NCBI RefSeq assembly: GCF_003719295.1
Contig: NZ_RFLW01000001.1
Coordinates: forward strand, 1,506,955 to 1,570,954
DNA from: Haliea alexandrii
GTDB taxonomy: Bacteria; Pseudomonadota; Gammaproteobacteria; Pseudomonadales; Halieaceae
Length of the DNA stretch: 64,000 bases
Direction: 5' to 3'
Made by a program: the position numbers and the translations under genes. Each line of letters begins with the position of its first letter. The first letter of the stretch is position 1. This document shows positions 49,282 to 58,971 of the stretch, in pieces. The notes beneath the pieces are model-generated. The model worked only from the letters and a program-made list of their open reading frames with translations, was not told where the DNA came from and did not search any database.

Positions 49282-51390
49282 TCAGAACTGGTAGCTCGCG
49301 CTCACACCAACGCGACGTGGTTCACCGAACTGGTAGTAGGGTTCAACCGCATAGCCATTGCGGGGGTCGTTGCCGAAGGCGCCGAAGCCTCGCGTGGCGT
49401 AGTCCCGGTCGGCGAGGTTGCGGGCCCACAGCGCTACGTCCCAGTTGCCGGCGGCCCAGCCCAGGCGCAGGTGCACCAGCTCGTAGGCCGCTGAGCGCAC
49501 GTCGTGACGGTCAGAGAAGTAGAAACTGTCGCGAGCCTCCACATCGATGCGCGCATAAGTGTGTTCCGTCAGCGCGAGGCGGCCTCCCAGCGCCGCCTGA
49601 TAGCTCGGCGCATGGGCCTGCTCGCGACCCGCCAGGTTGGTGCCGTCGGCGTTGATATAGCGATCGAAGCTGGCGTCCAGGAGACCGAGGTTGGCGTAGA
49701 GCTCCAGCGACGCGTTTACCAACCAGTCGAGTTCGAGCTCCAGCCCATAGTTGTGCCCCCGGGCGGCGTTGTTGGTGTAGTCGAGAAACGCGGTGCTGCC
49801 GTCCTCTCGCGGCAAAGGCACGGAGCCTTTTACCTGCTGGTCGTTGCGGTCCATGTAGAACAGGGCCAATCGACTCCGCAAGTTGCCGTCGAGTACCTCG
49901 GCCTTATACCCGAGTTCGTAGTTGAGCAGTGTCTCTTCGTCAAAACGGCCGAGGCCGGCCAGCAGGGCCTCCTGTTCGGGGCTGGCTGTTGTGCCTGCGC
50001 TGGCGAGAACGACGGCATTTACGCCGTTGCCGCGGTAACCGCGCGAAATGCTGGCATACCACAGCGCGCCGTCAGCGGGCTGGTATTCGAGGGCCAGACG
50101 CGCGCCCCACAGGTTCTTTTCAACCTGTTCGTCAACGCCATTGCTATCGATGTAGTCCGTGCGGCGCTGCTCCAGGCGCAGGCCGCTGGACAGTGTCAGG
50201 CTGTCGCTGAGTCGGGTATCCAGCTGCCCGAACACGGCCGCTGTGTCGGTGTCGTAACGGCTGTTGAACGGCGCGTCGAGGTAGGTGTACTGGCGATCCA
50301 GGTCCTCGCGATCGCCCAGGTAATAGAGGCCGGCGACCCAGTCCGAACGGCCGTTAAACAGGCGTGACTGGTCGTTGGACAGTAACCTCAGTTGGCCGCT
50401 GACGCTGTCGCGCTCGCGCAGATAGCGGTCAAAAGAGCTGTACTCCAGTTCCGGCGCGATGCCCACAAAACTCCAGTCCTCGTCGAAGCTGTACTCGGTG
50501 TCGGTTGTGGCGACTGTCAGCTGCGCCTCGATATCCAGCGACGAGCGCGCGGCTTTCCAGTTGAGGCTGCCAGCGCTGGTCTCCTGCCGGTCGCGACCGG
50601 GCTCATCGGACAGCGTGCGACGCGTGTTATCCAGCGAGAACGCATCGTAGCCGTTGTCGATGTCGGCCAGCACAAGGCTCAGGTCGAGTGTGTCCGAATC
50701 CGAGGCCAGCCAGCGCAGGCGCGCACGCACGGTCGTCTCGTCGCGCTCATTGGTGTCGTCGCGTTGCAGGAAATCATTGCTGTAGTAGCCGTCGCTGCGG
50801 TATTGCTGCACAGCCACGCGGTACAGCAGCTGTTCACCCGCCAGCGGGCCGGTGCCGACAACACCCAGTGCCTGGGTATTGTAGTCGGCGACGGTGGCTT
50901 CCAGGCGCAACCCCGGGGTGGCCTCGGGCGCTGCGCTGCGAATATTCACCAGGCCGGCGAGGGCGTTGGCGCCATGCAACGTGCCCTGGGGGCCGCGCAA
51001 TACCTCGACCTGGGCGATATCGAACAAAGTGCCGATGCCACCTAGCCCACTGACATCAATGCCGTCGATCAGCAATCCCACAGAGGGGTTTAGGGGTTCC
51101 TGAAACTGACTGCGCTCACCAATGCCGCGGATCTGGAAGTAGCGTGCGCGCGCGGCGCCGCTCGCATAGTTGAGGTTCGGAATGACATTGAGCACCTCCT
51201 CGAGATGCTGTGCAGCGCGCTCGCGCAAGCCGTCGCTGGTGAGCACGCTGGTCGACGTGGACTGGCTCAAAAGCGGTGTGTCGCGCCACTCAGCCGTGAC
51301 CAAAACCTCGCTCAGTTCTTGCGACGTGGCCGTGGTAGCGGCGAGCAGGGTAGTGAGGAGCGTGGTGCCAAATGTGTAGGATGTCTTCAT
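49282..51390 (-). CDS. TonB-dependent outer-membrane receptor, probably for thiamine
   Basis: A 702-residue receptor. ATG 51390 has GGAGAA seven bases upstream and starts a signal peptide (MKTSYTFGTTLLTTLLAATT); the first mature residues carry a TonB-box-like SEVLVTAEWRD. The plug follows (LNYASGAARARYFQIRGIG, VLRGPQGTLHGANALAGLVN in parts) and then a 22-strand-type barrel ending in GVSASYQF with terminal Phe. A TPP riboswitch in its leader, and YkoF/PnuT/kinase genes downstream, indicate thiamine or a precursor as ligand rather than iron. The ligand is inferred. Confidence 0.88.
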   Translation of the reverse strand: MKTSYTFGTTLLTTLLAATTATSQELSEVLVTAEWRDTPLLSQSTSTSVLTSDGLRERAAQHLEEVLNVIPNLNYASGAARARYFQIRGIGERSQFQEPLNPSVGLLIDGIDVSGLGGIGTLFDIAQVEVLRGPQGTLHGANALAGLVNIRSAAPEATPGLRLEATVADYNTQALGVVGTGPLAGEQLLYRVAVQQYRSDGYYSNDFLQRDDTNERDETTVRARLRWLASDSDTLDLSLVLADIDNGYDAFSLDNTRRTLSDEPGRDRQETSAGSLNWKAARSSLDIEAQLTVATTDTEYSFDEDWSFVGIAPELEYSSFDRYLRERDSVSGQLRLLSNDQSRLFNGRSDWVAGLYYLGDREDLDRQYTYLDAPFNSRYDTDTAAVFGQLDTRLSDSLTLSSGLRLEQRRTDYIDSNGVDEQVEKNLWGARLALEYQPADGALWYASISRGYRGNGVNAVVLASAGTTASPEQEALLAGLGRFDEETLLNYELGYKAEVLDGNLRSRLALFYMDRNDQQVKGSVPLPREDGSTAFLDYTNNAARGHNYGLELELDWLVNASLELYANLGLLDASFDRYINADGTNLAGREQAHAPSYQAALGGRLALTEHTYARIDVEARDSFYFSDRHDVRSAAYELVHLRLGWAAGNWDVALWARNLADRDYATRGFGAFGNDPRNGYAVEPYYQFGEPRRVGVSASYQF

Positions 51391-51392
51391 CG

Positions 51393-51421
51393 GGTTCTCC
51401 ATTAAGAACAGCAAGAGAACC
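51393..51421 (-). promoter_or_regulatory. Hairpin sequestering the receptor ribosome-binding site
   Basis: Perfect seven-base arms at 51393-51399 and 51415-51421 (GAGAACC and GGTTCTC on the transcript) enclose the loop; the downstream arm contains the GGAGAA ribosome site of the receptor gene. This is the expected form of a translation-controlling riboswitch platform. No U-tract follows, arguing against a terminator. Confidence 0.65.
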
Positions 51422-52843: not shown

Positions 52844-53497
52844 GTGCCCTTGAGGAGTATCGACGACCTTTTTGACAACAACCGTGCCTGGGCGCAGTCC
52901 GTAAAAACCTCTGATCCCGATTTTTTCGAGAAACTGGCGAACCAGCAAAGCCCGGAGTATCTGTGGATTGGCTGCTCGGACAGCCGCGTTCCGGCCAACC
53001 AGATTGTCGGCCTCCTGCCGGGCGAGGTGTTTGTTCATCGTAACGTCGCCAACATGGTGGTGCATACTGACTTCAATTGCCTCACCGTGTTGCAGTACGC
53101 CGTGGATGTGTTGCGGGTAAAACACGTTCTGGTGGTGGGGCACTACAATTGCGGCGGCGTGCGCGCCGCGTTCGAGAATCGCGACAACGGGCTTATCGAC
53201 AACTGGCTGCGCAACATCAAGGACGTTCAGCAACGCCACCGTCGACGTATTGCGGCACTCGAGAGCGACGAAGAGCGGGTGAACCTTCTCTGCGAGCTCA
53301 ACGTCATCAGCCAGGTTTCGAATGTGTGCCATACCACCATTGTGCAGAATGCCTGGGCGCGCAATCAGGCGCTGTCGGTGCACGGTTGGGTGTACAGCCT
53401 CAAGGACGGTCTCATCCAGGATCTACAATGTACGGTGACCGGCCCTGAACAGATATCCGAAGTGTACCGTGTACTGCCGGATCGCGAGGACTTTTGA
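52844..53497 (+). CDS. can: Beta-class carbonic anhydrase
   Basis: A 217-residue Zn enzyme interconverting CO2 and bicarbonate. The start is GTG 52844 with TTGGAG upstream. Catalytic residues are visible: C44, D46 and R48 in WIGCSDSRVP, and H100 and C103 in VVGHYNCGGV. Length and the N-terminal SIDDLFDNNRAWAQS match E. coli Can (220). It lies 15 bases after the degenerate GGDEF gene and may share its transcript. Confidence 0.95.
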   Translation: MPLRSIDDLFDNNRAWAQSVKTSDPDFFEKLANQQSPEYLWIGCSDSRVPANQIVGLLPGEVFVHRNVANMVVHTDFNCLTVLQYAVDVLRVKHVLVVGHYNCGGVRAAFENRDNGLIDNWLRNIKDVQQRHRRRIAALESDEERVNLLCELNVISQVSNVCHTTIVQNAWARNQALSVHGWVYSLKDGLIQDLQCTVTGPEQISEVYRVLPDREDF

Positions 53498-53571: not shown

Positions 53572-54504
53572 ATGACAGCCCAGCCAGTAAATATTGCCGG
53601 CAGTAAAATCCTTATCACGGGCCCTACCGGGCAGGTGGCGGCACCGGTCATTGACGCCTGGGCCGGGCAAGCGGAACTGACCGCGCTGGCACGCTTCAGT
53701 GATCCCGCGCAACGCAGCGCGTTGGAGGAAAAGGGGGTTCGCTGCGTGGCGGCCGACCTCGCAGACCCCACGGCGCTGAAGGGCCTGGCCGACGACTTCG
53801 ATTACGTTTTGAACTTTGCCGTGGTGAAAACCGACAGCTTTGATTACGACCTGGCCGCGAATGCGGAGGGCTTGGGGCGGTTGATGCTGCACTGCCGCAG
53901 CGTCAAGGCCTTCCTGCACCTGTCGTCAACTGCCGTGTACGAGTACGCCGGCCATGCACCGCGGGCCGAGGACGCGCCGCTGGGTGACAACCACCGCTCC
54001 ATGTTCCCGACTTACAGCATCAGCAAGATCGCTGCGGAAACCGTGTGCCGTTTCGTGGCGCACCAGTTCGGCATTCCGGCAACGATCGCCCGGCTCAGCG
54101 TGCCCTACGGCAACAATGGCGGCTGGCCCTGGTACCACCTGCTGATGATGGAGCAGGGCGTTCCCATTGACGTGCATCCCGAGCGCCCAAATCTGTACAA
54201 CCTCCTGCATACGGATGATTACATCGAAAAACTGCCGCTACTGCTCGGTGCTGCGAGCAACGAGGTGACCACCGTGAACTTTGGTGGCTCGCAGGCCGTC
54301 AGCATCGAGGACTGGTGTGCCTGGCTGACCGAGCTGACCGGGCTGGAGCCCGAGTTTCGCGACAGCCCCACCGCCTTCGGCAGCCTGGCGATCGACACCA
54401 GCCGTATGCATGACTTGATCGGTCCGACCCGCGTGGACTGGCGCGAAGGGGTGCGCAACATGGTCGCAACACTCTCGCCACACTTACTCAAGTCCGGCGC
54501 CTGA
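53572..54504 (+). CDS. NAD-dependent epimerase/dehydratase (extended SDR)
   Basis: A 310-residue short-chain dehydrogenase of the extended type. The Rossmann motif is ILITGPTGQVAAPVI near residue 12, the catalytic YxxxK is YSISK near residue 151 with an upstream LSSTAVYEYAG serine region. AGGAGG sits just upstream of the ATG. The substrate is not evident; the family covers sugar nucleotide epimerases and steroid or terpenoid dehydrogenases. It is the first gene of the group leading to the sulfotransferase, but co-function is only inferred. Confidence 0.83.
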   Translation: MTAQPVNIAGSKILITGPTGQVAAPVIDAWAGQAELTALARFSDPAQRSALEEKGVRCVAADLADPTALKGLADDFDYVLNFAVVKTDSFDYDLAANAEGLGRLMLHCRSVKAFLHLSSTAVYEYAGHAPRAEDAPLGDNHRSMFPTYSISKIAAETVCRFVAHQFGIPATIARLSVPYGNNGGWPWYHLLMMEQGVPIDVHPERPNLYNLLHTDDYIEKLPLLLGAASNEVTTVNFGGSQAVSIEDWCAWLTELTGLEPEFRDSPTAFGSLAIDTSRMHDLIGPTRVDWREGVRNMVATLSPHLLKSGA

Positions 54505-54529
54505 AGGCTGGCGGGGCAGGGGGCGGCGG

Positions 54530-54706
54530 GTGACGCAATTGTTGCTGCTGTTGGTGCTGGTGTTCAGCGCCGTCGCCCTTATGGTGGTGCTGGGTGAACG
54601 TTTTGCCCGGCCCATGCCGGCGGAGCGGGTGCGGCGCCTGCAGCGCTGGCTCTTGCCGTTGGTGGGGTTGATGTTACTGCTGTCTCTCGCCAGCCAGTAC
54701 TGGTAG
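54530..54706 (+). CDS. Small two-helix membrane protein (58 residues)
   Basis: A short open frame from GTG 54530 to TAG 54706 encodes 58 residues: an N-terminal hydrophobic helix (LLLLLVLVFSAVALMVVL), a basic loop (ARPMPAERVRRLQRW) and a second helix (LLPLVGLMLLLSLA). The pattern and absence of stops support a real protein, with a purine-rich GGCAGGGGGCGG before the start. It lies 25 bases after the epimerase gene. I do not recognise its family. Confidence 0.5.
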   Translation: MTQLLLLLVLVFSAVALMVVLGERFARPMPAERVRRLQRWLLPLVGLMLLLSLASQYW

Positions 54707-54803
54707 ACGGGTCACCCTTCAGGGTGATGCGCGCGGGCGTAAAAAACTGCACACTGCCGCGTTCCGATAATAAGTCTGATGGTTGCCCCCGGGGAGGCTG
54801 ATT

Positions 54804-55928
54804 ATGTCGACGTCCGAACTCGAAGCATTGCGCAGTGGCCAGTTGTGGGAAGAATTCTGCGAAGGGCTGAAAAGTGCCGGCAAGGAGATTCTCGCCGCCG
54901 GTGTACCCGAGGATGACCTCAGTCGGGCGGAGGGTTACCGCTATCTCACGCGCCTGCTGCGCCTGAGCCTGGAGAAACATCTGGAGTTCAACGATCCAGC
55001 CTGCCCCCAGTTCTATTCCCTGTCCCACGAAACCGCCAAGATCGGCAATGACAATCCCGACAACTTCTACCAGAACTGTGCGGTGGATGGGCAGCGCAGC
55101 TATCGTATTACCGGTAACGCGGGCCAGGTGGAATACCTGAGCATGGAAACCAAGGCCGGCTCCTTCGCCGGTCAGGGTGATATGGCGCCCACCGGGCATG
55201 TCACTCTGGATGATCTGGAACTGGGCCCCAACGGCGAGTTCGAGCTGCTGGTCAGCGCCACGCCGCAAGCGGGAAACTGGTTGCCCATGACCGAGGCCTC
55301 AGACAATATCCTGGTGCGTCAGACCTTTCGCGACCGCGCGCGGGAGCCGAAGCTCGAGTTGCGTATTGAATGCCTGGATCAGCAGGATGCGCCGGTACTT
55401 GACCCCGTAGAGTTCGTCAGCCAGCTGCAGCGTGTGGTGCCCTTCGTCAACGGCACGGCCGGGCTGTTCCGCAACTGGATGCTGGGCTTCGCCGAGCACA
55501 TCAACGCACTGCCGCCCAACGACCAGCAGATGTGCCTGCGTGCCGGGGGCGACCCTGCAATTTTCTATCACAACAGTTACTGGCAGCTGGCACCGGACGA
55601 GGCCTTGGTGATCGAGTTCATGCCACCCAGTGACTGTCGCACGTGGAACTTTCAGTTATCCAATTTCTGGATGGAGTCGCTGGATTACCGCTTCCAGCGC
55701 ATCCACATCAACCGCAGCGGGGCGCGCTACGAGGCGGATGGCAGTGTGCGCATCGTGGTGGCGGCAGAAAACCCCGGCAGCGCCTTCCCCAACTGGCTGA
55801 GTACGGCTGGCCACCGTTGCGGCAGCATGCTGCTGCGCTATGTGGAAGCTTCCGATCATCCCCCGGTGCGCACACGCCTGGTTACGCTGGATACACTCAA
55901 GGCAGGAGAATTCAATGACCACACCTGA
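54804..55928 (+). CDS. DUF1214 domain protein
   Basis: A 374-residue protein without signal peptide. The C-terminal half has the DUF1214-like elements YWQLAPDEALVIEFMPPSD near residue 266, CRTWNFQLSNFWMESLDYR near residue 287 and HINRSGARYEADGSVRIVV after that. The N-terminal part, with LTRLLRLSLEKHLEFNDP, is typical of longer members found near steroid- or lipid-related genes. No catalytic function is established for the family. GGGGAGG precedes ATG 54804. The 3' end overlaps the sulfotransferase start by 14 bases, so the two are coupled. Confidence 0.8.
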   Translation: MSTSELEALRSGQLWEEFCEGLKSAGKEILAAGVPEDDLSRAEGYRYLTRLLRLSLEKHLEFNDPACPQFYSLSHETAKIGNDNPDNFYQNCAVDGQRSYRITGNAGQVEYLSMETKAGSFAGQGDMAPTGHVTLDDLELGPNGEFELLVSATPQAGNWLPMTEASDNILVRQTFRDRAREPKLELRIECLDQQDAPVLDPVEFVSQLQRVVPFVNGTAGLFRNWMLGFAEHINALPPNDQQMCLRAGGDPAIFYHNSYWQLAPDEALVIEFMPPSDCRTWNFQLSNFWMESLDYRFQRIHINRSGARYEADGSVRIVVAAENPGSAFPNWLSTAGHRCGSMLLRYVEASDHPPVRTRLVTLDTLKAGEFNDHT

Positions 55929-57090
55929 GCTGGCGCTGGATGCCGATGCACTGGTCGCCGCCGCGAAAGCGGTAGACGGGCTCGAGGATTTCGGGGACGA
56001 CAGTTATCGCGAACCGCTGGAAAGGCTGTTGTGGTCGCTGGTGCACGAGGCGGACCTGAATCCGATCGGGCGCCCGGCAATGGCACAACGGATGCTCGAT
56101 ATTCTGTCTACCCGGCTGCGGGTACAGGAATGGCTGCGGCGACACCCGGAAATCCTCGATGAAGAGATCGTTGCGCCCCTGGTGATTGTCGGCTTGCCGC
56201 GTACTGGCACGACCATGCTGCACCGCACGATTGCGGCGGATAATCGTATGTATGCCCCCCTGTGGTACGAAACACGCTTTCCCTGTCCGGACCTCGACTG
56301 GGACTTCACCGCCGCCGGCGATCGCCGCATACGCGATGCCAAGGCCGAAGTAAAAATGATGGTCGACAGCAACCCGGACCTGCTCGCCGTGCACCCGCTG
56401 GATGCGATGGAGCCGGACGAAGACATCATGTTGCTGGAGCAGTCCTTCTACAGTTTCAATATTCAGGCGCTGGCACATGTGCCGAGTTTCGACGCCTGGA
56501 TAGAAGCTCAGGACCACACCATCGGCTATGAATACCTGAAGCTCCTGCTGCAGTTCCTGCAGTGGCAGAAGAAACGCAGTGGTCAAAGTGGCGAGCGCTG
56601 GGCGCTGAAAGCACCGCATCACCTGCATTACATGGACCTGGTGTTTCGCATTTTCCCGGACGCCCGCGTGGTACAATCGCACCGCGATCCGGTCGAGACA
56701 ATTCCCTCGCTGGCCAGCATGATCGCCAACGTGTGGAAGGTCTATTCCGACTCCGCGGACCCGGTGGAAGTGGGTCGGCAGTGGGCGCGCAAGTTTGCCA
56801 AGGGCATGCAGCATACGATCGACGTGCGCCGCGAGCTGGGCCCCGAACGCTTCCTCGACCTCTGGTTCAAGGACACGGTAAGCCAGCCGCTGGTGGAGAT
56901 TGGTCGCGTGTATGATTTTCTCGGTATGGACCTGACGCCCCAGGCGAGTGTGGAAATGGCGCGCTGGCAGGATTCCAATCGACGTGAATTGCGCCCGGCC
57001 CACGCCTATACCCTGGACCAGTTCGGCCTCACCGAGGAAGGGCTCAAGGAACAATTCAAGGGCTATCGCGAAGCCTTTATCCTGAAGTAA
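55915..57090 (+). CDS. Sulfotransferase family protein
   Basis: A 391-residue cytoplasmic enzyme expected to move sulfate from PAPS to an acceptor. The ATG at 55915 has AGGAGA upstream and overlaps the DUF1214 gene. The 5'-phosphosulfate loop is VIVGLPRTGTTMLHRTIA near residue 92, and the 3'-phosphate motif is RVVQSHRDPVETIPSLASM near residue 250; KAPHHL between them is also conserved in the family. The N-terminal helical domain resembles Sulfotransfer_3 enzymes of marine bacteria. PAPS-making genes follow at once, so activity is probable; the acceptor is unknown. Confidence 0.9.
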   Translation: MTTPELALDADALVAAAKAVDGLEDFGDDSYREPLERLLWSLVHEADLNPIGRPAMAQRMLDILSTRLRVQEWLRRHPEILDEEIVAPLVIVGLPRTGTTMLHRTIAADNRMYAPLWYETRFPCPDLDWDFTAAGDRRIRDAKAEVKMMVDSNPDLLAVHPLDAMEPDEDIMLLEQSFYSFNIQALAHVPSFDAWIEAQDHTIGYEYLKLLLQFLQWQKKRSGQSGERWALKAPHHLHYMDLVFRIFPDARVVQSHRDPVETIPSLASMIANVWKVYSDSADPVEVGRQWARKFAKGMQHTIDVRRELGPERFLDLWFKDTVSQPLVEIGRVYDFLGMDLTPQASVEMARWQDSNRRELRPAHAYTLDQFGLTEEGLKEQFKGYREAFILK

Positions 57091-57147
57091 TACCACTTTC
57101 GCCGGGCGAGCGGCGAACAACACGCATCACTGCACGAGAGAGAACAC

Positions 57148-57765
57148 ATGGCAGAGCAAAAAGCGACAAACGTTCACTGGCACGAGGGTGACATCACCCG
57201 TGAGCACCGGGAAAAGCTGTTGGGCCACAAGGGGGCGACCCTCTGGTTTACCGGCCTGTCCGGCAGTGGCAAAAGCACGGTGGCGGTCGAGCTGGAAGGG
57301 CGCCTGAACGAGATGGGCGTACTCGCCTATCGTCTGGACGGTGATAACGTGCGCCTGGGTATCAACCGCAATCTCGGGTTCAGCGCTGACGACCGCACGG
57401 AAAACATCCGTCGCATCGGGGAAATTTCCAAGCTGTTTGTGGACTGCGGTATCGTCACACTGAGCAGCTTTATCAGCCCCTATGCCAGCGATCGCAATCA
57501 GGTGCGTGAACTGCACGAGGCGGCGGGCATGGATTTCATTGAAATCCACGTTGACTGTTCCCTGGAAGCGGCTGAAGCCCGCGATCCCAAGGGCCTGTAC
57601 AAGAAAGCGCGCGCCGGTGAAATCAAGAACTTCACAGGCATTGATGACCCCTACGAGGCCCCGTTCAAGCCAGAGGTGCACCTGCACTCGGACCAGCAGA
57701 CGCTGGCTGAAGAGGTGGATGCCATCATTGCCCTGCTGCGCGAGCGCGGCATCATCAAGTCCTGA
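57148..57765 (+). CDS. cysC: Adenylylsulfate (APS) kinase
   Basis: CysC phosphorylates APS to PAPS. The 205-residue protein has the P-loop WFTGLSGSGKSTVAVELE near residue 32, YRLDGDNVRLGINRNLGFS near residue 63, RTENIRRIGE and the lid region DPKGLYKKARAGEIKNFTGI near residue 150. All are APS kinase signatures. It lies between the sulfotransferase and ATP sulfurylase genes. In an assimilatory role it would normally sit with cysDN; here a single-chain sulfurylase follows instead. Confidence 0.95.
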   Translation: MAEQKATNVHWHEGDITREHREKLLGHKGATLWFTGLSGSGKSTVAVELEGRLNEMGVLAYRLDGDNVRLGINRNLGFSADDRTENIRRIGEISKLFVDCGIVTLSSFISPYASDRNQVRELHEAAGMDFIEIHVDCSLEAAEARDPKGLYKKARAGEIKNFTGIDDPYEAPFKPEVHLHSDQQTLAEEVDAIIALLRERGIIKS

Positions 57766-57789
57766 CCCTTACCCCGAACGGAGACAATC

Positions 57790-58971
57790 ATGATCAAGCC
57801 ACACGGCTCAGACGAGCTGCATGCCTTATACGTTGCCGATGACGCCCGTCGCGAGGCGCTGCTCAAGGAGGCCGAGCAACTGCCGTCGTTGCTGCTGAAC
57901 TCCGCCGCCGCCGCTAACGCGGTCATGCTCGGCGCCGGCTATTTCAACCCGTTGAAGGGATACATGAACCTGACCGATAGCCTGAGCGTAGCGGAGAAGC
58001 TACAGACGTCTGAGGGTCTGTTCTGGCCTGTACCGATCGTCAACCTGACAGAGGCTACCGATATTCAGCCCGGCAGCCGCATCGCCCTGCGCGACCCCAA
58101 CGTGGATGGCCACCCGGTGCTGGCGGTGATGCAGGTGGAGGCGGCTGAGCATGTCGCCGATGAGCAGATCGATTTTATCGCCGAGAAGGTGTTCCGCACG
58201 CTGGATCCCTCACACCCGGGCGTCGCCACCTTCAAGTCCCTGGGGCGCACGCTGCTTTCTGGGCCGATTGAGGTGCTCAACTTCTCCTACTTCCCCGGCG
58301 AGTTTCCTGACACGTTCCGCACCGCCGTCGAGATTCGTGCGGAAATTGCCTCGCGCGGTTGGAACAAGGTGGTGGCCTTCCAGACCCGCAATCCCATGCA
58401 CCGTGCTCACGAAGAGCTTTGTCGCATGGCCATGGAAGACCTGGACGCGGACGGCATCCTCATTCACATGCTGTTGGGCAAGCTGAAGCCGGGCGATATT
58501 CCTGCGGATGTTCGCGACGCCTCCATTCGCAAAATGGTCGATGTGTATTTCCCCCCCAATACGGTGATGGTGACAGGCTACGGCTTTGACATGCTCTACG
58601 CGGGGCCACGCGAGGCAGTTTTGCATGCAGTCTTCCGCCAGAACTGCGGCTGCACGCACCTGATCGTCGGCCGTGACCACGCCGGGGTGGGTGACTATTA
58701 CGGTGGTTTTGACGCGCAGACCATTTTTGATGAAGAGGTGCCTGCCGGCGCGCTGCAGCTGGAGATCTACAACGCGGATCACACGGCCTACAGCAAGAAG
58801 CTGGACCGGGTGGTGATGATGCGTGATGCGCCCGACCACAGTCCGGAGGACTTCGTGCTGCTGTCAGGCACCAAGGTACGTGAAATGCTCGGTAACGGCA
58901 TTGCGCCACCGCCCGAGTTCTCACGTCCGGAAGTGGCGAAAATCCTTATGGACTACTACCAGAGCCTGTAA
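57790..58971 (+). CDS. sat: ATP sulfurylase (Sat, single-subunit type)
   Basis: Sat makes APS from sulfate and ATP. The 393-residue protein belongs to the homooligomeric Sat type, not CysDN. Active-site motifs are VVAFQTRNPMHRAHEELCRM near residue 196 (QxRNPxHxxH), MLLGKLKPGDIP near residue 228, HLIVGRDHAGVGDYYG near residue 291 and VLLSGTKVREML near the C-terminus. It ends the sulfation group and a hairpin follows at 58980-59005. Together with CysC it would supply PAPS to the sulfotransferase. Confidence 0.95.
   Translation: MIKPHGSDELHALYVADDARREALLKEAEQLPSLLLNSAAAANAVMLGAGYFNPLKGYMNLTDSLSVAEKLQTSEGLFWPVPIVNLTEATDIQPGSRIALRDPNVDGHPVLAVMQVEAAEHVADEQIDFIAEKVFRTLDPSHPGVATFKSLGRTLLSGPIEVLNFSYFPGEFPDTFRTAVEIRAEIASRGWNKVVAFQTRNPMHRAHEELCRMAMEDLDADGILIHMLLGKLKPGDIPADVRDASIRKMVDVYFPPNTVMVTGYGFDMLYAGPREAVLHAVFRQNCGCTHLIVGRDHAGVGDYYGGFDAQTIFDEEVPAGALQLEIYNADHTAYSKKLDRVVMMRDAPDHSPEDFVLLSGTKVREMLGNGIAPPPEFSRPEVAKILMDYYQSL

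Follow-up and report, generated by a model that had tools for sequence, protein, structure and literature searches.

A probable sulfation cassette with a DUF1214 protein at the only PAPS-making genes found in Haliea alexandrii

Results and Discussion

In the genome of the marine bacterium Haliea alexandrii, a sulfation cassette is probably lodged in what would be its single PAPS-making operon: on the reading that we favor, an SDR oxidoreductase and a DUF1214 protein prepare the acceptor, a small and hydrophobic phenol or ring alcohol, for sulfation by a sulfotransferase (ST). The genes were found in a stretch of 64,000 nucleotides (contig NZ_RFLW01000001.1, positions 1,506,955 to 1,570,954), further referred to as the window. 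ATP sulfurylase Sat and APS kinase CysC would convert sulfate and ATP to PAPS for the whole cell, including cysteine synthesis via a CysH of the PAPS-reductase type and some 15 sulfotransferases. The TerB-type SDR together with DUF1214 may produce or bind a small, hydrophobic ring compound with a hydroxyl group, onto which the ST would move sulfate from PAPS, while the location of the ST in one run with Sat-CysC would match donor supply to demand.

Gene content of the run

The scans against Pfam and NCBIfam confirmed the gene content, coordinates and single strand given in an earlier note on this DNA. All six genes are on the plus strand with intergenic gaps of at most 97 bases and probably constitute one operon. 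The first, previously called an epimerase (EPI, 53572..54504), encodes a TerB-type extended SDR oxidoreductase (PF01370, 76 bits) and belongs to the variable cassette. It is followed by a gene for a 58-aa membrane protein (TM58, 54530..54706) that had no Pfam or NCBIfam match, yet is conserved in relatives. The DUF1214 gene (54804..55928) starts with ATG at 54804, preceded by GGGGAGG; PF06742 scored 33.2 bits in the protein scan (cut-off 25) and only 22.2 bits, under the cut-off, at the same site in the genome scan. Its last 14 bases (55915–55928) overlap, as noted before, with the gene of the PAPS-dependent ST of the Sulfotransfer_3 family (55915..57090; PF13469, 138 bits, 7e-40, cut-off 27). 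The run is completed by CysC (57148..57765; PF01583, TIGR00455 over cut-off) and single-chain Sat (57790..58971; PF01747, PF14306, TIGR00339 with 395.8 bits at a cut-off of 322.95). Upstream of it lies a beta-carbonic anhydrase gene (CA, 52844..53497, plus strand; PF00484, 185 bits), which, according to synteny in relatives, is a member of the same conserved block. The promoter and terminator scan found 1 and 6 candidates, respectively, against 2.3 and 5.8 expected.

Role of the PAPS-making genes

Both Sat and CysC were found in the H. alexandrii genome in single copies, and the search of this genome for CysD was negative. Its sole CysH has 2 cysteines and PAPS reductases as best matches, but scored below the NCBIfam cut-offs. 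The single copies and the type of CysH argue that the window's Sat and CysC, as judged from their sequences, are the general sulfate assimilation set, the only one of this genome and needed for PAPS-dependent reduction. The earlier proposal of a PAPS set dedicated to sulfation, for which cysDN was to be sought elsewhere in the genome, is thus rejected for H. alexandrii because of the single copies; a sole sat/cysC set serving general assimilation was the outcome that the earlier note had named as refuting it. Nor is the ST an orphan in the sense of being unique, since the genome contains 16 Sulfotransfer_3 stretches, corresponding to approximately 15 genes.

Variation around CysC-Sat in Halieaceae

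Sat was present in 118 of the 140 family genomes (76 of the 78 good ones), nearly always as a single copy. Altogether 65 Sat loci were tabulated, 20 chosen by the best DUF1214 match and the rest spread over genera; three (L092, L101, and L136) were dropped because CysC was missing or the upstream DNA was too short, while L138 was scored as DUF1214-bearing despite its broken copy. In this and the other locus tables, related genomes are treated as independent. CysC-Sat was the constant part, while ST, DUF1214 and SDR came and went around it: the order EPI-TM58-DUF1214-ST-CysC-Sat, whose conservation was to be checked, was recovered in 16 of the 65 loci, but 35 had CysC-Sat without ST. EPI and TM58 were parted by 0.7–1.3 kb in 5 of these 16, with extra genes in the spacer in all three loci viewed. 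TM58 persisted upstream of CysC-Sat also in loci without ST, DUF1214 and SDR and was, therefore, rejected as a sulfation gene and assigned to the housekeeping block.

The presence of ST and DUF1214 was strongly linked (24/4/0/33 for both, ST only, DUF1214 only and neither; p=3e-13), with no DUF1214 at the CysC-Sat site in any of the 33 loci that lacked ST and had sufficient upstream sequence. The SDR, likewise, was seen only where ST was present (0/35 loci lacking ST); in the subset of 24 loci that have CA and TM58, p was 0.003. Of the 30 loci with ST, five had the ST adjoining CysC but lacked DUF1214, and in one more the DUF1214 gene was broken, so that DUF1214 is not indispensable. In two genomes (G032 and G119), a DUF1214-ST pair was on a different contig from Sat. 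Halieaceae genomes also contain many further DUF1214 paralogues.

A near-universal, mostly single Sat and the many loci with CysC-Sat but no ST would also fit neutral synteny, in which ST, DUF1214 and SDR landed by housekeeping CysC-Sat genes and are functionally unrelated. Moreover, a large part of the family has the same block order. Order alone therefore proves little, and conserved order in the family was rejected as a proof by itself because TonB-GGDEF-CA is kept as well. What counts against neutral synteny comes from other lineages, where CysD-CysN lie beside DUF1214-ST in varied orders in Burkholderiales and Pseudomonas genomes with a second CysD. Chance does not readily explain this, and we consider neutral synteny unlikely.

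Pairing of DUF1214 with sulfotransferases beyond the window

In the best 80 named DUF1214 loci of at least 570 confirmed, an ST directly adjoined DUF1214 in 69, in both gene orders (ST downstream of DUF1214 in L191 and L193, for example; the fragmented STs of L163 and L174 were counted as ST). Judged by record titles, the pairs span at least six phyla and include Gamma- and Betaproteobacteria, Myxococcota, Gemmatimonadota, Acidobacteria, Acidimicrobiia and Dadabacteria. The adjacent ST was missing in the remaining 11, ten of which were titled Myxococcota or Deltaproteobacteria, while in the last, L160, the 2.7 kb after the DUF1214 gene contained no ST. In H. alexandrii itself, 5 of the 7 DUF1214-like genes are within two genes of an ST (binomial probability approximately 2e-8 if the genome has 3600 genes, 14 of them STs). 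Distances among DUF1214 proteins and among their STs were correlated (r=0.89, 63 pairs; none of 2000 permutations reached this value), to which shared ancestry contributes.

In a class-wide sample of 369 genomes, not picked for close similarity and with 1.5 kb flanks viewed, six had members of the DUF1214 family at E up to 1e-20, H. alexandrii included. At the 11 places in the five other genomes, the ST was next on the same strand in three and on the other strand within about 1.5 kb in three, while none was seen in five; among the weaker matches (E above 1e-50), 5 of 6 were without ST. More distant DUF1214 proteins pair with ST less often. DUF1214 matches were present in 27 plasmid records, of which six were viewed. 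On the five sphingomonad plasmids viewed, DUF1214 lay in catabolic clusters; two of these had an ST at a distance of 4–6 kb, and in the other three no ST was seen.

PAPS-making genes beside the pair in other lineages

PAPS-making genes were located within 4 kb in 43 of the same 80 loci and were absent from this distance in 37. Four arrangements were distinguished among the 43, i.e., divergent CysD/N (24), downstream CysC-Sat (14), colinear upstream CysD-N (4) and upstream CysC (1), while a fifth, DUF1214-ST-VOC-CysQ-CysD-CysN, was present on a P. sprentiae plasmid. All 26 searched Burkholderiales and Pseudomonas genomes with CysD at the locus had two CysD (28 of the 30 searched in total), and in the one locus tested (L203 from Pseudomonas) CysN was fused to APS kinase. 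The coupling of donor-making genes to DUF1214-ST is supported by these unrelated arrangements. It is this part of the earlier interpretation that stood, while the dedicated donor set, the orphan ST and the 58-aa protein as a sulfation gene did not.

A DHH-type protein, whose model matched best to the PAP phosphatase 8a8k (TM 0.73), was encoded within 4 kb in 26 of the 80 loci. This bears on the alternative that DUF1214 works on the donor side, in PAPS/PAP handling or as a scaffold between APS kinase and ST, rather than on the acceptor. Such a role would agree with several arrangements in which DUF1214 separates ST from the PAPS genes or adjoins them; nevertheless, it is very doubtful, given that those 26 loci already have a protein resembling PAP phosphatase, that many DUF1214-ST pairs have no PAPS genes nearby and that the sphingomonad DUF1214 has no adjacent ST.

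Because the partnership of DUF1214, ST and donor genes recurs, differently built, in distant bacteria, DUF1214 is likely part of a sulfation pathway, in which it would act on the acceptor. More tentatively, with somewhat less than an even chance of being right, this DUF1214 subfamily may be a general partner of Sulfotransfer_3 enzymes that handles the acceptor, as an enzyme or a carrier; the two would form a two-protein sulfation unit, often accompanied by an SDR, that joined PAPS genes independently several times and occurs in at least six phyla.

Proteins of the cassette and the possible acceptor

The best PDB matches of the ST were 2zq5 (2.6e-47) and 2z6v (3.5e-41), over nearly the whole length. 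The motifs RTGTT, which we take to be the PAPS-binding loop, and HRxP were invariant among six aligned STs. The DUF1214 protein belongs to the same family as 6ans (E 6e-115), with a model TM of 0.93. The SDR matched TerB (6nd7/6d2v) over residues 7–307 (E 1e-58), while its similarity to the SDR of Pseudomonas L203 was not beyond chance, making the two at best analogues. Genes for SDR, SRPBCC or SnoaL proteins were near 50 of the 69 DUF1214-ST pairs versus 4 of the 11 ST-less loci. These neighbors may point to a small cyclic hydrophobic acceptor rather than to the surface or lipid-like metabolite suggested earlier, and no PKS or other scaffold-making enzyme was found among the scanned genes of the run.

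That a cell-surface polysaccharide or a membrane lipid is sulfated has its own precedent, since bacterial PAPS genes are reported to adjoin sulfotransferases in some sulfated-capsule clusters (PMC11641403, PMC11766843), and in L252 the pair adjoins a gene judged GalE-like by its sequence. It is, however, improbable here: neither the eight scanned window proteins nor the six annotated plasmid regions viewed included a glycosyltransferase, flippase or polymerase, and the neighbors are often SDR, SnoaL and SRPBCC proteins.

Another possibility is that sulfate serves as a chemical handle, with the ST making a leaving group that DUF1214 or SnoaL/SDR proteins eliminate or hydrolyze in a degradation or tailoring route. 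In CurM and polyketide synthase sulfotransferase domains sulfation is followed by elimination, and the ST had weak similarity to these domains (4gbm 0.049, 4gox 0.011); the catabolic surroundings of the sphingomonad DUF1214 and, beside the SDR in L064, a SnoaL protein similar to the dehydratase BaiE point the same way. Nevertheless, among the 50 matches listed for the DUF1214 model there was no convincing enzyme (TM ≤0.22 beyond 6ans and VPA0106/VPA0735) and no thioesterase or PKS was noted by the viewed pairs, which leaves the handle route rather unlikely.

Comparison with known systems

Sulfation of a ring compound by a cassette at the shared donor genes, the reading preferred here, can be compared with several characterized or solved systems. 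The closest solved relatives of the window ST, 2zq5 and 2z6v, presumably mycobacterial, are deposited as putative uncharacterized proteins, and we know of no established function for either. The 6ans protein from Burkholderia cenocepacia, of the same family as the window DUF1214, is deposited as uncharacterized. TerB, a full-length relative of the SDR by sequence likeness, is presumably an oxidoreductase of the terfestatin pathway, in which, to our knowledge, no sulfotransferase participates. Sulfotransferases located by PAPS genes are of a known kind, while our search of the open-licence literature found neither an assigned role for DUF1214, despite its solved structure, nor any link of DUF1214 or DUF1254 to sulfotransferases. 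The pairing with ST and donor genes provides a concrete hypothesis for such a role and a means of discovering a class of sulfated metabolites in bacteria, with a shared housekeeping donor operon as the anchor for a repeatedly gained or lost cassette.

In the adp sulfation cassette of Streptomyces davaonensis, AdpST is encoded with adpP1-P3 and the PAPS genes raise the sulfation of a small phenolic product (PMC12135136). The window ST similarly adjoins APS kinase and ATP sulfurylase genes; however, the adp PAPS genes are extra copies while those of the window are the only ones, and the adp acceptor originates from a type III PKS while in the window run DUF1214 and a TerB-type SDR are present and no PKS was found. 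The Bt_0411-0416 genes of Bacteroides thetaiotaomicron, for which the available description mentions neither DUF1214 nor SDR in contrast to the window, are responsible for cholesterol sulfate and have PAPS genes by an ST acting on a hydrophobic ring alcohol (PMC9417993); the adjacency of PAPS genes and sulfotransferase is shared with the window, the likeness being one of gene layout.

Gene arrangement in the window

The six genes listed in the earlier note proved real and correctly placed. They occupy positions 53572-58971 of the forward strand in the order extended SDR ("epimerase", 53572-54504), 58-residue membrane protein (54530-54706), DUF1214, Sulfotransfer_3 sulfotransferase (ST), APS kinase (CysC) and single-chain ATP sulfurylase (Sat). 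The DUF1214 gene starts with the ATG at 54804, preceded by GGGGAGG, and is overlapped by the ST gene by 14 bases, while the largest intergenic gap in the run is 97 bases. Upstream on the same strand are genes for a carbonic anhydrase and a GGDEF protein. A scan of little power revealed no outstanding promoter or terminator within the run, and the six genes likely form one operon. A TonB-dependent receptor gene (49282-51414, reverse strand) is divergent from this block; most of the relatives viewed that carry the SDR, and several that have no SDR-DUF1214-ST cassette, keep it in this position.

Role of the PAPS-forming genes

The earlier note suggested a dedicated sulfation pathway. Sat and APS kinase are each present in a single copy in the window's genome, and the possibility of CysDN elsewhere in it did not hold, the only PF01507 protein being CysH and not CysD. 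All seven solved relatives found for this CysH carry the name PAPS reductase, and its score was 119 bits for the PAPS-reductase model TIGR02057 and 69 for the APS-reductase model TIGR02055, each under its cut-off. It has two cysteines; the iron-sulfur cluster of APS reductases needs more. The sequence evidence for the PAPS-reductase type is strong, but not final because cluster-free enzymes using APS exist in moss. The genome also encodes one protein of the nitrite/sulfite reductase family and, judging by 16 matched stretches, about 15 sulfotransferases. With Sat and CysC single and CysH of the PAPS-reductase type, the donor is therefore shared between cysteine synthesis and the sulfotransferases, and the set is not a dedicated one; this is the situation that the earlier note itself had named as counting against its proposal.

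Several sulfotransferase genes lie close together at two places in this genome (C1:52955-58326 and C5:507979-511413). At L121 and L124 ST genes, with and without DUF1214, have neighbours named from sequence as SDR, zinc alcohol dehydrogenase and class III aminotransferase, which suggests a second kind of sulfotransferase cluster in the genome.

Distribution of the cassette in the Halieaceae

Of 140 family genomes, 118 contain Sat, nearly always as one copy; it is present in 76 of the 78 good genomes and in all 28 genera. DUF1214-like proteins occur in 95 of the 140. The ST adjoins CysC in 30 of 65 tabulated Sat loci and is absent there in 35. Where a locus had 3.3 kb or more of upstream DNA, ST and DUF1214 occurred together in 24 (including a broken copy, L138), ST alone in 4, DUF1214 alone in 0 and neither in 33 (p=3e-13, with related genomes taken as independent). 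An SDR could be seen at 18 of the 30 loci with ST and at none of the 35 lacking it; for the 24 loci showing both carbonic anhydrase and the 58-residue gene, the SDR by ST counts were 15/4/0/5 (p=0.003, related genomes again as independent).

On the CysC+Sat tree the state without ST, DUF1214 and SDR needed 11 changes, at least 4 of them forced by well-supported branches, which shows repeated loss or gain of the cassette in the family. The clearest contrast is between G053 and G054, two genomes of one genus: G053 keeps the order TonB receptor, GGDEF, carbonic anhydrase, 58-residue gene, CysC, Sat and the genes beyond, and lacks SDR, DUF1214 and ST, which in relatives occupy two separate places. 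The 58-residue gene, present in cassette-less G053 and missing from G054, is part of the housekeeping block. In G053, the closest cassette-less genome, the TonB receptor and CysC genes are each in two overlapping pieces, reflecting a frameshift, either real or a sequencing fault.

Five family loci contain ST without DUF1214; in the two that were viewed, both of genus g12 (L095, L135), an EamA-like permease, named from sequence, stands in the place of DUF1214 between the 58-residue gene and ST. At the CysC-Sat site ST can therefore do without DUF1214 more readily than DUF1214 without ST. Between SDR and the 58-residue gene, L064, L066 and L067 carry a TrmH/SpoU-like methyltransferase gene (named from sequence), L064 a SnoaL gene as well, and L068 and L069 a similar-sized gap.

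DUF1214-sulfotransferase partnership

The chief interest of the system lies in the partnership of DUF1214 with sulfotransferases, of which no mention was found in the open-licence library searched. A genome-contig scan with the DUF1214 alignment gave 570 confirmed places, and in 69 of the best 80 a same-strand ST directly follows DUF1214, with record titles from Gamma- and Betaproteobacteria, Myxococcota, Gemmatimonadota, Acidobacteria, Acidimicrobiia and Dadabacteria. The 11 unpaired loci among these 80 were L160 and ten titled Myxococcota or Deltaproteobacteria, three of which have an ST on the opposite strand at a distance of 4-5 kb. Of the seven DUF1214-like genes in the window's genome, five are at most two genes from an ST, and both orders occur; simple assumptions put the chance of this at about 2e-8. 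Besides the window's own, four DUF1214/ST neighbourhoods were seen there (L050 5417-7707, L121 4617-7207, L125 5082-7689, L249 4258-7641), three arranged ST-DUF1214 and one DUF1214-SDR-ST; SDR genes adjoin the pair in L121, L125 and L249. Distances of DUF1214 and ST correlated with r=0.89 over 63 pairs, shared ancestry contributing in part.

The link loosens with distance. DUF1214 occurred in 6 of 369 genomes of a class-wide sample, the window's genome included; at the 11 DUF1214 places of the other five, an adjoining same-strand ST was present at three, an opposite-strand ST within about 1.5 kb at three (SDR adjoining DUF1214 in all of these), and no ST was in view at five. Among 27 plasmid records with a DUF1214 match, six were viewed; five sphingomonad plasmids (L226-L229, L231) carry DUF1214 within degradation-type clusters with no adjacent ST, an ST lying 4-6 kb off in two and none being seen in three.

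PAPS genes beside the pair in other lineages

Of the best 80 of 570 loci, 43 have a gene for PAPS synthesis no more than 4 kb away. In 24 of them, from Burkholderia, Cupriavidus, Ralstonia, Paraburkholderia and Pseudomonas, CysN-CysD and DUF1214-ST diverge; the Halieaceae contribute 14 with CysC-Sat downstream, Comamonas 4 with a colinear CysD-CysN upstream, and L202 is the one locus with CysC upstream. A Paraburkholderia sprentiae plasmid has the order DUF1214 (27% identity)-ST-VOC-CysQ-CysD-CysN. Because both donor genes and layouts differ, these loci argue for selection rather than an inherited order. Two CysD were present in 28 of 30 of these genomes that were searched, including each of the 26 that carry CysD beside DUF1214-ST; the remaining two, without CysD there, had one CysD and one weak match. 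In G150, G157 and G169 one CysD copy is, by coordinates, the locus copy. In the Pseudomonas locus L203, CysN, the one CysN examined for fusion, is fused to APS kinase.

A DHH-type protein is encoded within 4 kb in 26 of the best 80 of 570 loci (10323-11300 in L203). Its Pfam match is weak and its sole PDB sequence match is NrnA (E 0.35), while its model (pLDDT 92) is closest to 8a8k, the PAP phosphatase of the archaeon Methanothermococcus (E 4e-13, TM 0.73), with RecJ, NrnA and other DHH enzymes close behind. It is likely a PAP phosphatase, possibly a bacterial one accompanying sulfotransferases. Certain loci thus look complete in PAPS production, use and by-product clearance and, with these covered by other genes, handling of the acceptor would fall to DUF1214 and SDR.

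Possible acceptor

TerB, an enzyme acting on a terphenylquinone-type ring compound, is a full-length match to the window's SDR (E 1e-58). A SnoaL protein encoded next to the SDR of L064 is similar to the bile-acid dehydratase BaiE (E 3e-14). Among the best 80 of 570 loci, 50 of the 69 DUF1214-ST pairs have an SDR, SRPBCC or SnoaL gene no farther than 4.5 kb away, against 4 of the 11 ST-less loci, counts that rest on similarity to a few chosen queries without genome-wide background, SDRs being common. The L203 SDR has no sequence similarity to the window's, so the two would be analogues rather than the same gene. The DUF1214 model (pLDDT 86.5) shares its fold with 6ans, and VPA0106 and VPA0735 are much more distant matches; the fold points to no function, because the others among 50 listed matches (seed storage proteins, SIDT proteins and others) reach TM of at most 0.22 by query length. 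Our best guess for the acceptor is a small cyclic hydrophobic alcohol or phenol. A surface glycan, to which a GalE-like gene (named from sequence) adjoining the pair in L252 might point, is less likely since no glycan genes were seen in the window's run.

Comparison with known systems

The observation in the earlier note is confirmed, and its interpretation stands only in part: the dedicated set falls, while PAPS genes do recur beside DUF1214-ST. Coupling of sulfotransferase and PAPS genes is already known. It occurs in the adp "sulfation cassette", whose authors set dedicated against communal PAPS genes (PMC12135136), and in Bt_0411-0416 for cholesterol sulfate (PMC9417993). The arrangement in the Halieaceae is a different one, in that the communal PAPS set itself bears the cassette.
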